This document shows, one piece after another, positions 3,455 to 25,744 of a stretch of 25,772 nt of DNA. The notes under the pieces are model-generated. The model was not told the origin of the DNA and searched no databases. It was given only the letters and a program-made list of their open reading frames with translations. The stretch lies in the IMG/VR virus record IMGVR_UViG_3300022752_000347, positions 1 through 25,772 of that record; one strand, written 5' to 3'. Numbering within the stretch: position 1 is the stretch's first letter; each line of letters opens with the position of its first letter. This DNA is from a virus. The translations under genes and the position numbers were made by a program.

Positions 3455-5049
3455 GAATTCCGAGCGATCCGGTAGAACGAGAATTCTTCTACCTAGACCT
3501 CATCCACAAGTGCGGCGTATCCATGCCTACTCGCCGCACCGATTACGGGGGTCTTCGCTCGTGGTATCTATTCGGGAATGGACCGGACGAAGCACCGGCC
3601 ATGTACAACAAGATCTTTCCCCACATAGATCAGTTGTCATCCTTCCTCTACTCTGCCGAGACCACCCGGTTCTCCATAGACTTGGGTGCGGCAGTCCCAG
3701 ATGAAGAGCAGGCCAAACTCCCGGTCTTGACCCGCGCACTCAACGATGAATGGCTAAACAGCAATGCTGACCAAGTATTCTCGACAGCGGTATCATGGTC
3801 TCTGTGCTACAACAGCACCTTTATTAAACTGGTTTATCGAAACGGTATTCATCCGTATCTCGTGGAACCGGCCAGCATCGGTGTACTGCGAGAAGACACC
3901 GCATACACTGACCGACAAGAAGCAATAATTCAGACTTACTACATCACGAAGTCTGAACTCTACAACCGTCTCTACAGCCACCCGCAACGGGAAAAGATCG
4001 TAGAGCGCGTGTCGTATATGCAGCACGAGCGCACGGAAGTCGCTAACGGCGTGCAGCGCATTATCATGAGCCAGACAGACCCGACACTCTACGGGAACGT
4101 CAACCTCGATCTCTCTGGCGGCAATCGCTACAAAGCACAAGTCGCAGAGGAAACCGTTGAGATGACGGAACTCTGGGTCTGGAACGATGAGACCGGCGAC
4201 TACCAAGTGGTCACCCGCGCAGACCCTGATGTCATCATCTATGATCGTCCTGGCGCAACCGTCTTTTTGAAAGGCGAGCTGCCCTTCATCCAGATCTGCC
4301 CACTGCCGCTCTACGATTACTACTGGGGTCAGTCAGAAGTTTCCCGTCTGGTCTACCTCCAGCAAATGCGTAACAAGCGCATGGTGGAGATTCTGGACAT
4401 CCTGTCTAAGCAGGTTAGCCCACCAACGGCTCTGATCGGATTCACTGGAATCTTGGATGAGAAGAACTTTGCTCTTAACCGAGCAGGCGGGATCTTGGCA
4501 ACAGATATGCCAAGCGCCAAGGTTGAGAAGCTGGCCCCGCAAATGCCGCCAGATCTCTTCCGTGAGATCGGTGAAATTGACCTGATGTTCGAAGAAGCCT
4601 CTGGAATCGTCTCAGTCCTGCAAGGAAGGGGGGAGTCTGGGGTCAGATCGTCCGGTCATGCCAGTCAACTTGCCCGTTTAGGGTCATCTCGTGCCAAAAA
4701 ACGGGCGCTTGTCATCGAAGATTCGCTAGAAAAAATGGCGACTCTGTATCTCAAGCTCATGCAAGCGTATCCAAACACGCATTACACGGATACAAGGGGC
4801 AATCGGTTCATTGCCGAGCAATTGCCTAAGAATTACGCTGTAAAAGTGGATGCACATAGCAATTCACCCATCTTCATGGAAGATTTGCGTCAATTGGCAT
4901 TTAACTTGTTCAAAGCACAAGTCATTGACAAGGAATCCTTGCTAGACTTGCTTGAACCGCCTATGAAGCAGCAATTGAAAGACCGTCTCAAGAAAATGGA
5001 AGCGGCACAAGCCCAGCAAGCGGCTATGCAACCTCCGAAGGAGAAGTAA
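3451..5049 (+). CDS. Portal protein
   Basis: The portal is the dodecameric ring at the head vertex through which DNA enters and leaves. This 532-aa product has the right size and the right place: after terminase, before scaffold and capsid. It starts at an ATGA overlap. The sequence has portal-like features: an N-terminal helical wing beginning DPVEREFFYLDLIHKCG, a central part with YDYYWGQSEVSRLVYLQQ (about 289-306) and PTALIGFTGI, and a Gly/Ser segment GRGESGVRSSGHASQL (about 392-407). A helical C-terminus ends in a Lys/Gln/Ala-rich tail (DRLKKMEAAQAQQAAMQ). The arrangement of the Gly/Ser loop followed by long helices is common in podoviral portals. The final codon overlaps the next tiny reading frame as TAATG. 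Assignment rests on position, size and general pattern rather than on a single catalytic motif. Confidence 0.88.
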   Translation: MRIPSDPVEREFFYLDLIHKCGVSMPTRRTDYGGLRSWYLFGNGPDEAPAMYNKIFPHIDQLSSFLYSAETTRFSIDLGAAVPDEEQAKLPVLTRALNDEWLNSNADQVFSTAVSWSLCYNSTFIKLVYRNGIHPYLVEPASIGVLREDTAYTDRQEAIIQTYYITKSELYNRLYSHPQREKIVERVSYMQHERTEVANGVQRIIMSQTDPTLYGNVNLDLSGGNRYKAQVAEETVEMTELWVWNDETGDYQVVTRADPDVIIYDRPGATVFLKGELPFIQICPLPLYDYYWGQSEVSRLVYLQQMRNKRMVEILDILSKQVSPPTALIGFTGILDEKNFALNRAGGILATDMPSAKVEKLAPQMPPDLFREIGEIDLMFEEASGIVSVLQGRGESGVRSSGHASQLARLGSSRAKKRALVIEDSLEKMATLYLKLMQAYPNTHYTDTRGNRFIAEQLPKNYAVKVDAHSNSPIFMEDLRQLAFNLFKAQVIDKESLLDLLEPPMKQQLKDRLKKMEAAQAQQAAMQPPKEK

Positions 5050-5213
5050 TGGTCACCCAAGGCTATACAAAGACCGGGGATCAGCCCCGCGTCACCGCTA
5101 AAAGTCTAGATTCACGACAGACAACTCCATCCTTGACGTACCGTACACAGACGAATAGGATGGGTTCTGCTGGAAATTCTTCCCGCATGACCCGTGACTA
5201 CACACGAAGGTAA
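5049..5213 (+). CDS. Small basic hypothetical protein (54 aa)
   Basis: This frame starts at the A of the portal stop (TAATG) and runs 54 codons. The product is hydrophilic, rich in Thr, Arg, Ser and Gln, and ends MTRDYTRR. There is no membrane segment or recognisable domain. The coupled start and the absence of any competing longer frame make it a plausible gene. It opens a cluster of short basic frames between portal and the next sizeable gene. Function is unknown; a virion-associated or nucleic-acid-binding role would fit its charge but is only a guess. Confidence 0.55.
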   Translation: MVTQGYTKTGDQPRVTAKSLDSRQTTPSLTYRTQTNRMGSAGNSSRMTRDYTRR

Positions 5214-5218
5214 TTGAA

Positions 5219-5260
5219 ATGTACAAGACAATGAAGCGCGGTCGTAAGACCCGTCGTTAA
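5219..5260 (+). CDS. Tiny Arg/Lys-rich reading frame (13 aa)
   Basis: The encoded peptide is MYKTMKRGRKTRR. GAAGG lies eight bases before the ATG, a credible ribosome site. Seven of 13 residues are basic, and the RGRK core recurs in the next tiny frame. At this length coding cannot be proven from sequence alone. It may be a real micro-protein or a relic. Confidence 0.4.
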   Translation: MYKTMKRGRKTRR

Positions 5261-5330
5261 TCCCCGCTAAAGAGTTCGATGGGTATGGCTGCTTGCCCTT
5301 CTCAAGTGGCCCCGCAACCAGGAGATCGTC

Positions 5331-5363
5331 ATGGCACGTCGTGGTCGTAAAGGTCGGAAGTAA
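5331..5363 (+). CDS. Tiny Arg/Lys-rich reading frame (10 aa)
   Basis: The encoded peptide is MARRGRKGRK, with seven basic residues of ten. AGGAG ends six bases before the ATG, one of the better ribosome sites in the window. It shares RGRK with the 13-aa frame about 100 bases upstream. A strong site in front of so short a basic frame is notable, but translation is not proven. Confidence 0.42.
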   Translation: MARRGRKGRK

Positions 5364-5395
5364 TCCGAACGTAACAGGTTTCTGAACCGGCCTGC

Positions 5396-5418
5396 GGGAG
5401 GTGGGCGATGAGCCTCCC
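5396..5418 (+). promoter_or_regulatory. GC-rich hairpin in the post-portal gap
   Basis: GGGAGG (5396-5401) pairs perfectly with CCTCCC (5413-5418) around an 11-base loop. No run of T follows, so it does not look like an intrinsic terminator. Its 5' arm is also an ideal ribosome site for an ATG at 5408 inside the loop, which would encode only ten residues (5408-5440). It could be an RNA-processing or translation-control element. Confidence 0.4.
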
Positions 5419-5420
5419 AC

Positions 5421-5447
5421 TTGACTTGATTTGTAATTAGGTATAAA
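5421..5447 (+). promoter_or_regulatory. Possible sigma70-type promoter before the capsid gene block
   Basis: TTGACT at 5421 and TATAAA at 5442 resemble -35 and -10 boxes, but the 15-base spacer is short of the usual 16-18. The start of the next gene at 5457 leaves almost no untranslated leader, so the match may be accidental. This is one of the few non-coding stretches in the window where a promoter could sit. Confidence 0.3.
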
Positions 5448-5456
5448 AGGTCGCAC

Positions 5457-5912
5457 ATGAGCGTACCACCAGATAAATTGATGGACTTGATGAAGAAGGG
5501 TCAAAAGACTGACACTCCTTCTGATACTCCTGCGGCTCCGGGAACATCAACTCCCGAAGCGCCCCCAATGGCTTCCCCAATGTCCACACCTGAAAAACAG
5601 ATGGGGACTCGTGAAGCAGCAATGATCAACATCTCAATTGCTCTTGATCTTCTTGACCAGTCTCTCCCGGCAGTCGGTGCAGAGTCGGATGAAGGCAAAG
5701 CAATTATGGAAGCCTCTCGCAAACTCGGTGGTTTGCTGGGCGGCAAACGTAATGAAACCGGCGAACTCCAGCAGTCAGAAATTCTGCAAATGTTGCAGAC
5801 ACTGCCTAAGGCAGGCGGCATGACTCCTGAGTCCCGTGCAATTCAGTCAGCCCCGCCTCCGGGAATGACGCCCCCTGGCGCAGGTGCGCCAAAACCCCCT
5901 GGACTAGGATAA
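5457..5912 (+). CDS. Pro/Met-rich virion-region protein of unknown function
   Basis: 151 aa. The N-terminal 45 residues are Pro/Ser/Thr-rich and disordered-looking. A helical middle (about 50-80, REAAMINISIALDLLDQSL) follows, then GGLLGGKRNETGELQQSEIL, and a Pro/Gly-rich tail ends APKPPGLG. It lies between portal and the scaffold candidate, where many phages encode head-assembly accessories. The low-complexity ends with a short helical core suggest a flexible linker or binding protein. There is no enzymatic motif. AAAGG lies upstream of the ATG at a workable distance. Gene reality is well supported by position and by the next gene starting three bases after its stop; function is unknown. Confidence 0.75.
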   Translation: MSVPPDKLMDLMKKGQKTDTPSDTPAAPGTSTPEAPPMASPMSTPEKQMGTREAAMINISIALDLLDQSLPAVGAESDEGKAIMEASRKLGGLLGGKRNETGELQQSEILQMLQTLPKAGGMTPESRAIQSAPPPGMTPPGAGAPKPPGLG

Positions 5913-24542: not shown

Positions 24543-24763
24543 GAAAGAAGTTTCCAAATTTAAGTGTTGGCAGGGGAGAGAAGTTGCCTGCCAGCCGTGG
24601 TGCTGGACTGACTGCCAAAGGTAGAGCTAAGGCTCGTGCTGCGGGATCTAACCTGCAAGCCCCTACCAAGTCAGGACCACGCCACAAGAGTTTCTGTGCC
24701 CGTTCAAGAGGGTGGACGGGGGAGCGCGGGAAAGCAGCCAGGAGAAGATGGGGATGTCGTTAG
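24539..24763 (+). CDS. Small Lys/Arg-rich phage protein (74 aa), DUF6321-like
   Basis: Starts at GTG in a GTGA overlap with the phosphoesterase stop. The sequence GRGEKLPASRGAGLTAKGRA, a SGPRHKSFCARSRG segment and the C-terminal RRRWGC resemble a conserved family of small basic phage proteins that I recall as DUF6321-like; the family name is from memory. The product is over a quarter Arg/Lys and contains two Cys. It may bind nucleic acid or be packaged in the virion, but the role is unknown. The methyltransferase gene starts inside its last four codons. Confidence 0.65.
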   Translation: MRKKFPNLSVGRGEKLPASRGAGLTAKGRAKARAAGSNLQAPTKSGPRHKSFCARSRGWTGERGKAARRRWGCR

Positions 24764-25380
24764 CAACTATTCATCGTCAGAAAACAGGTAAAGTTTCTGA
24801 CAAGTGGTCATCGTATCTAGACTTTTATGACGACAGGTTTTTCTACCTGCAAGACACTCAGGTCAAAATTCTAGAGATCGGCGTCCAGAACGGTGGCTCA
24901 CTGGAAACGTGGGCGCAGTACTTTTGGAATGCCGAGAAGATCTACGGCATTGACGTAGACCCCAAGTGCGCTGACCTCAAGTTCGAGGATGAGCGTATTG
25001 AAGTCATCGTTGGTGATTCCAAAACAACTCAGATTGATAGCACATTTGATATCATCATTGACGATGGATCTCACACGTCAGACGATATCATCGAGAACTG
25101 GAACGTCTGGTGGCCTAAACTCAACAACGGCGGTTTGTACGTTGTAGAGGACTTCCACACCATGTGGATGCCTGGGTATGGGAATAACGCTATACGCTTC
25201 TTCTCAGGCTTTGTAGCGGCTGTCAACGCCCAGACCAAGACTAACCATCAGGTCAGGCGCTTAGAGTTTACGAACTCGATAGTGATGCTAGAGAAGGGAG
25301 AGCCGGTGCTAGGTGATCGTCTGATCACTGGTAGTGTGGCTTATGTAAACCCAGACGTTATAGGTATCAGAGATGGCTAA
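24754..25380 (+). CDS. Class I SAM-dependent methyltransferase (Methyltransf_24-like)
   Basis: 208 aa from the ATG at 24754, chosen because GGAGA lies eight bases upstream; the open frame reaches back to 24712 over the previous gene. SAM-binding motifs are clear: ILEIGVQNGGS (39-49), YGIDVDP (64-70), FDIIIDDGSH (98-107) and GGLYVVED (126-133). DDGSH and the EIG-x-NGGS form are typical of the family that includes sugar and small-molecule O-methyltransferases, rather than DNA methyltransferases, which would show DPPY or a PC motif. The substrate could be a glycan or a cell-wall sugar. This fits with the DUF5672-like gene elsewhere in the window, but the link is inferred. Confidence 0.88.
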   Translation: MSLATIHRQKTGKVSDKWSSYLDFYDDRFFYLQDTQVKILEIGVQNGGSLETWAQYFWNAEKIYGIDVDPKCADLKFEDERIEVIVGDSKTTQIDSTFDIIIDDGSHTSDDIIENWNVWWPKLNNGGLYVVEDFHTMWMPGYGNNAIRFFSGFVAAVNAQTKTNHQVRRLEFTNSIVMLEKGEPVLGDRLITGSVAYVNPDVIGIRDG

Positions 25381-25504
25381 TAAAGGTCTGTACTACAACA
25401 TCAACCGGCGTAGAAAACTTGGACTTCCTGCGAAAAGGCCAGGGCAGAAGGGTTACCCAACTGCCAAAGCCTTCCGCAGATCTGCCAGGACGGCTAAGAA
25501 ATAA
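25373..25504 (+). CDS. Small basic phage protein (43 aa)
   Basis: The ATG at 25373 lies in the last codons of the methyltransferase gene (ATGGCTAA overlap). The product begins MANKGLYYNINRRRKLG and continues KRPGQKGYPTAKAFRRSART, ending AKK, so about 37% is Lys/Arg. It matches in style a widespread family of small phage proteins with KGLY-x-NI and KPG-x-KG-x-PTA-x-AF motifs, often coded beside other Lys-rich proteins. The function of that family is not known to me. It ends three bases before the stop of the minus-strand gene. Confidence 0.65.
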   Translation: MANKGLYYNINRRRKLGLPAKRPGQKGYPTAKAFRRSARTAKK

Positions 25505-25507
25505 GGA

Positions 25508-25744
25508 TCAGACGGTTTGTTCGTCGATCTCTTCTTCTTCTTCCTCTTCCTCTTCTTCGTCCTCTTCGTCGTCATCTTCCTCATGCGCTTGGAACAGGGC
25601 GTCCATAGTGGAGGAGAAGAGGCTTCCCAAGGTGAACTCGTTGATGTTCGAAGCCTTGGCGACGAGGAACGCAACCGAGAAAAGTGAGTTCAGTGCATCA
25701 ACTGGCTCTGAGCCGCCGATTGCGTCAAGTATCTGATCTTTCAT
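25508..25744 (-). CDS. Minus-strand protein with long acidic C-terminal tract
   Basis: 78 aa. On the minus strand GGAG lies six bases before the ATG, supporting a real gene. The first 54 residues are a normal amphipathic helical domain (DQILDAIGGSEPVDALNSLF, EFTLGSLFSSTMDALFQ). Residues 55-72 are 18 consecutive Glu/Asp, then IDEQTV. It is the only minus-strand gene with a convincing start in the window and may mark the start of a divergently organised region to the right. The Ser-rich reading frame on the + strand over it is its shadow. Possible roles include mimicking nucleic acid or binding basic proteins; unproven. Confidence 0.75.
   Translation of the reverse strand: MKDQILDAIGGSEPVDALNSLFSVAFLVAKASNINEFTLGSLFSSTMDALFQAHEEDDDEEDEEEEEEEEEEIDEQTV

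Follow-up and report, generated by a model that had tools for sequence, protein, structure and literature searches.

The DNA behind the portal gene of the virus studied here carries a chain of very small, mostly arginine-rich reading frames, which raises the question of whether frames of 10 to 13 codons are genes and, if so, what their products could do in a phage. The window, by which we mean the whole stretch of DNA that was analysed, comes from an IMG/VR virus record, is 25,772 bases long and encodes a terminase, a portal and a major head protein. No near match to it was found among 50,697 phage records, and its portal protein matched well with only two annotated records, MW202825 and MW202753, both from uncultured phages of Manatee Spring. 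IMG/VR itself contains hundreds of relatives. The phage family that carries the two basic micro-frames described below (micro1 and micro2) is uncultured and mostly found in freshwater; a cultured member was searched for and none was found. The distant capsid relatives Stenotrophomonas phage BUCT555 and Bradyrhizobium phage ppBjS10J-1 were compared by their annotated gene maps.

Two basic micro-frames between the portal gene and g151

All the frames listed by the sequence-only reading are present in the window, namely ORF-A, micro1, micro2 (Table 1) and the frame MSLPLDLICN, which starts at position 5408. ORF-A occurs across most of the phage family and its counterpart in MW202753 is annotated as a hypothetical protein. 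The g151 product, which matched neither PHROG nor Pfam, lies downstream of the micro-frame region. At the position of the TTGACT of the promoter-like element before g151, relatives carry TTGACA; a promoter scanner made no call there, the window spacer being 15 nt and the scanner range 16–18. MW202825 and MW202753 both contain micro-frames in the portal-g151 gap, where antisense ORFs have been annotated instead; neither the micro-frames nor the pseudoknots PK1 and PK2 are recorded in these annotations.

Table 1. Features of the portal-g151 region, in window coordinates.
Feature	Position	Strand	Description
ORF-A	5049..5213	+	basic protein of 54 aa whose start codon shares bases with the portal stop (TAATG)
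micro1	5219..5260	+	MYKTMKRGRKTRR, 13 codons; ribosome site GAAGG overlaps the end of ORF-A
PK1	5281..5311	+	H-type pseudoknot; S1 5281-5284 with 5295-5298, S2 5287-5294 with 5304-5311
micro2	5331..5363	+	MARRGRKGRK, 10 codons; ribosome site AGGAG
PK2	5390..5418	+	H-type pseudoknot; S1 5390-5393 with 5403-5406, S2 5396-5402 with 5412-5418
Promoter-like element	5421..5447	+	TTGACT - 15 nt - TATAAA before g151; candidate from sequence and alignment only
g151	5457..5912	+	conserved 151-aa protein; anchor for the gap comparison

Each of the two RGRK peptides has a net charge of +7 in the window. The two window strands contain 181 ATG frames of 8–20 codons, and Arg and Lys make up 45% or more of the residues in only two separate ones, micro1 and micro2; a shorter version of micro1, opened by an internal in-frame start, passes the threshold as well. 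Since micro1 and micro2 are alone in this respect and recur in relatives, they are not chance frames. Their family patterns are MYK..KRGRKTRR for micro1 and M(A)RKxRKGRKxRK for micro2. In a first portal search, both micro-frames were found in every locus with long enough downstream DNA. In a comparison of 172 distinct portal-to-g151 gaps, 153 had a recognisable micro1, 148 a recognisable micro2 and 139 both. Some of these loci were drawn from a pattern search that required micro1, so that 153/172 cannot be read simply as a prevalence; neither of the two portal searches carried this bias. Some variants that escaped the filter are basic micro-frames all the same, such as MQRKMLRYARPSRR in L239-L248, MYGKMPKPMKKPPMRDGKRS in L266 and three tandem frames in L214.

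The micro-frames are also tied to this gene neighbourhood when searched for on their own. The micro1 DNA pattern matched at least 119 contigs in IMG/VR, and among the matches listed 180 of 184 occurrences were accompanied by a portal homologue; in the remaining four, g151 and the head protein were spaced as expected. The micro2 pattern matched at least 120 contigs; among the matches listed, every newly examined one lay in the portal-g151 neighbourhood.

Other regions of the window were noted in passing. A 292-aa protein with a Pfam DUF5672 match is encoded at 1751-2629, between terminase and portal, and overlaps the end of the terminase gene. Near the right end, 24712-25380 encodes a protein with a Methyltransf_24-type methyltransferase domain; in one Manatee Spring relative an annotated methyltransferase adjoins the terminase. 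The segment 25419-25744 is of low complexity; it would read as a tract of Ser on the + strand, at 25419-25736, and as a tract of Asp/Glu on the - strand, at 25508-25744.

The features are not equally deep. PK1 and micro2 are still present in L365, L366 and L383, in which the portal is about 50% identical to that of the window; L365 lacks ORF-A and micro1, carries a promoter-like TTGACA just upstream and continues into a different, new gene (MAGSNIGSK...). At 39–41% portal identity (L386, L388 and L389), ORF-A and PK1 are missing, but two 11-codon basic frames remain in tandem, each with a ribosome site: MARKHKRAKRK with MARHMRRSRRK, and MARKSRRHKRK with MARRMRRHKRK. Tandem basic micro-frames are thus probably the oldest shared feature and the pseudoknots more lineage-bound, an order that follows presence and absence and not a tree. 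Since this deepest clade has micro-frames without PK1, PK1 is not essential to the peptides. The micro-frames, for their part, are not universally needed in this gap, because L228, L235 and L247 have ORF-A and no recognisable micro-frames or pseudoknots there. Relocation elsewhere in the L247 genome was considered and rejected, the sole weak match being the end of a longer protein. In L214 and L382 the tandem consists of three basic micro-frames, not two, and a PK2-like structure stands at its end. In L387, L214 and L382, a shared GGGGAC-TTCACTC-like element replaces PK1 in the interval between the first and second micro-frames and is possibly another RNA element.

Coding signatures of micro1 and micro2

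In order to evaluate whether the frames evolve as proteins, substitutions were compared between reading frames. The Nei-Gojobori dN/dS of micro1, taken over the 84 distinct DNA sequences of its 13-codon form, was 0.14–0.16 in frame and about 2.2 in the other two frames. The values for micro2 were 0.19 in the 12-codon class, 0.14 in the 13-codon class and 0.16 in the MARMKRKGRK form; the 10-codon form of the window gave 0.38, from three sequences only. These values are pairwise and were computed without a tree; in the main length classes of both micro-frames they fall at 0.14–0.19 in frame and reach about 2 or more in those alternative frames for which a score was obtained. Arg9 and Arg13 of micro1 are invariant in 84/84 sequences and are encoded by several different codons (CGG, CGT, AGA, CGC and AGG at position 13).

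The starts behave accordingly. An SD match of at least 4 nt precedes 152/153 micro1 starts and 148/148 micro2 starts, as compared with 216/874 other ATGs of the same gaps; where micro2 has several in-frame ATGs, the SD-bearing one was preferred as a tie-breaker, which introduces a mild bias. The ribosome sites GAAGG and AGGAG, which had been called credible from a single sequence, belong to a nearly universal feature of these genes. Broken frames in relatives, which the sequence-only reading had named as grounds for refutation, were looked for and did not occur for micro1 and micro2. Furthermore, CGT and CGC account for 1064 of 1220 Arg codons in the micro-frames (87%) versus 122 of 267 (46%) in 17 sampled window genes. 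As judged by codon usage, this pattern is that of efficiently translated genes and not of a stalling leader.

Together, these comparisons indicate that micro1 and micro2 are genuine protein-coding micropeptide genes under selection. The suggestion that repeated micro-frames are translated into micro-proteins thus holds strongly for the two RGRK frames, with their purifying selection, ribosome sites and frequent codons, and fails for the third frame, at 5408, which is considered below with PK2.

Pseudoknots PK1 and PK2

Two RNA structures that the sequence-only reading had not mentioned were recognised in the gap, PK1 between micro1 and micro2, outside both frames, and PK2 on the 3' side of micro2. 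Single-sequence folding of two gaps gave no unusual stability; because this method is blind to pseudoknots, covariation was needed. The ten proposed pairs of PK1 were evaluated in a sequence-only alignment of 57 non-redundant segments. They are standard in 95.4% of cells, against 83.1 ± 0.8% after shuffling and 36–68% in slid registers, and eight of the ten pairs show changes on both sides. The covariation score was 0.345, versus 0.110 ± 0.012 for shuffled alignments and at most 0.129 for slid ones, controls that model relatedness only partly. Compensation in S2 is exemplified by GGCUGCUU/AAGUGGCC, GGCUGACU/AGUUGGCC, GGUUUCUC/GAGAAACC and UCUCGCUC/GAGUGGGA, and by AGC..GCU in L366.

PK1 was found in 142 of the 148 gaps with micro2 and in none of the 24 gaps without it. 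It begins at a median of 18 nt past the micro1 stop and ends 17–26 nt (median 21) before the micro2 ATG in 141 of 142 cases. In a separate scan with a PK1 pattern, 51 of the 52 newly examined matches among those listed had a basic micro-frame directly 3', in this phage family; at the 52nd (L409), the contig ends inside a basic micro-frame. By covariation and position, PK1 is a real, conserved, covarying H-type pseudoknot tightly associated with micro2.

A role of PK1 as a programmed frameshift or bypass signal joining micro1 to micro2 was discarded, since micro1 and micro2 are each provided with an SD and an ATG of their own and several loci carry one frame alone. When the window gap was searched against Rfam (E up to 10), nothing exceeded the gathering score, and eight relatives gave tRNA only. 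The hint of Mu-gpT-DE at 5296-5333, which scored 14.3 bits (E 2.6) against a gathering score of 49, was taken as chance, and identity with a known riboswitch or other RNA class was discarded for lack of an Rfam match. In many relatives (L025, L041 and L054 among them) the micro1 stop is followed by a small, apparently covarying hairpin (TTCCCCGCAAGGGAA, TTCCGTAAGGAA, TTGCCCGAAAGGGTAA), which is weak or absent in the window.

PK2, likewise a covarying H-type pseudoknot, combines a GC-rich S2 with an A-rich loop. When S2 alone sets the register, 29 of 40 non-redundant sequences can form the 4-bp S1, whereas 1000 shuffles gave 8 on average and 16 at most; a structural parse succeeded in 151 of 172 gaps versus 21% of shuffles. 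This structure accounts for the ten-codon frame at 5408, which had been put forward as a further micro-protein on the strength of its GGAGG. The GGAGG is part of the S2 helix, and the ATG of MSLPLDLICN is included in the loop at 5407-5411. The frame itself is found only in the close clade of the window, with a drifting C-terminus, and is absent elsewhere. It was rejected as a micro-gene. The probable role of PK2 is to give shape or protection to the mRNA that precedes the putative promoter of the next gene.

Putative function and comparison with known systems

The reading that we favour, with a probability of about one half, is that the micropeptides are late, nucleic-acid-binding products made with the head proteins and that PK1 is the translational operator of micro2. 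Both peptides would be expressed late, together with the head proteins, and would bind nucleic acid, most likely with a role in head assembly, in genome packaging or on the packaged genome. PK1 would act in cis on micro2 translation, possibly bound by the basic product itself. The codon bias points to a useful level of translation, the +7 charge of each window peptide to nucleic-acid binding, and the position among the head genes to participation in packaging or head assembly. On the grounds of charge and position, the sequence-only suggestion of DNA-binding or packaged micro-proteins is plausible. The peptides are unlikely to act by bulk DNA condensation alone, because about 400 copies of each, for an assumed T=7 head, would neutralise only about 8% of the charge of a 35-kb genome. 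Trypsin, the usual proteomics enzyme, would cut the peptides into fragments too small to see, so that standard virion proteomics would miss them. A literature search that covered few subscription journals returned nothing on these micro-frames.

It is possible, if on balance unlikely, that the peptides are not virion components and act in trans as Arg-rich regulators binding PK1, PK2 or other phage RNAs. Arginine-rich RNA-binding motifs are known from lambda N and Tat, and the Arg/Lys-rich composition of these 10–13-aa peptides would suit such a role, as would two strongly conserved pseudoknots adjacent in cis, one of them tied to micro2. However, micro1 is found without PK1, and so are the tandem frames of the deepest relatives, so PK1 cannot be an obligate target. 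Host takeover or ribosome association late in infection, with cationic micropeptides binding the ribosome, nucleoid or membrane of the host, appears improbable: the composition does resemble that of ribosome-bound basic peptides in general, but the location in the head gene cluster is strict in essentially all relatives.

The sequence-only reading had also proposed leader peptides, i.e. that the act of translation, and not the product, controls downstream genes by stalling or RNA switching. Tiny frames beside RNA structures, in a conserved order and with C-termini that are always basic before the stop, could suggest it. We nevertheless consider it improbable, since the Arg codons are frequent and not rare, micro1 persists without micro2 or PK1 and the PK1-micro2 unit without micro1, the downstream genes differ, and no terminator-like hairpin or other attenuator was found on the + strand of 4900-5700. 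Finally, that only the RNA is conserved and the frames are its untranslated by-products is scarcely credible, real as the pseudoknots PK1 and PK2 are, because in-frame substitutions are mostly synonymous (CGN to AGR included) with the opposite in the other frames, the pseudoknots lie outside the frames, and micro-frames exist without PK1.

The favoured head-associated role brings to mind the J proteins of microviruses (phiX174 J and its relatives), strongly basic proteins of about 24–38 aa that are encoded with the capsid genes of ssDNA phages, function in DNA packaging and hold to the capsid by an aromatic C-terminal anchor. Like them, micro1 and micro2 products are very small, strongly basic and encoded with capsid genes. 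Unlike them, these peptides are of 10–15 aa, are encoded in tandem, belong to a tailed dsDNA phage and share no sequence homology with J; a J-like aromatic anchor is absent, as all micro-peptide C-termini are basic, and the peptides are too short for family searches. A second parallel is the adenovirus core peptide Mu (protein X), an Arg-rich, DNA-binding virion peptide of 19 aa in its mature form, present in 100–300 copies (PMC7998265). Whereas Mu is cut by a protease from a precursor, micro1 and micro2 are encoded as complete genes of 10–13 codons.

As unannotated small phage genes supported by conservation, micro1 and micro2 resemble the entries of phage small-protein catalogues, one of which was reportedly compiled by Fremin et al. 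in 2022. A bacterial intergenic survey used a lower limit of 15 codons (PMC11188072), and homology searches at 20 aa already lose most true matches (PMC11364881). If the favoured reading is right, genes of as few as 10 codons are stable, conserved parts of the head gene cluster of a widespread phage family that annotation has missed.

With regard to the putative operator, ribosomal protein S15 binds a pseudoknot in its own message. The closest precedent is the operator of T4 gene 32, whose pseudoknot, located 5' of the start codon, nucleates binding by the nucleic-acid-binding protein that the gene itself encodes (PMC535899, PMC3014915), and in 2010 this was described as possibly the only viral pseudoknot in translational autoregulation (PMC3014915). 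PK1 is likewise an H-type pseudoknot upstream of a ribosome site, that of micro2. It differs in that it ends about 21 nt from the AUG and precedes a gene of 10–13 codons, and protein binding is here only putative. The window at 5312-5330 and the aligned relatives contain no UUAA(A) repeats, and for this reason PK1 was not filed as an operator of the T4 gene 32 type. That micro2 and PK1 form an autoregulatory pair, in which the peptide binds PK1 and halts its own translation until DNA packaging consumes it, is a tentative and rather unlikely extension of the favoured reading. If true, it would place micro2-PK1 among the smallest protein-RNA feedback circuits and make PK1 the second phage pseudoknot operator after that of T4 gene 32. 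Under the favoured reading, a pseudoknot coupled to a basic micropeptide would offer a small and directly testable protein-RNA control system.
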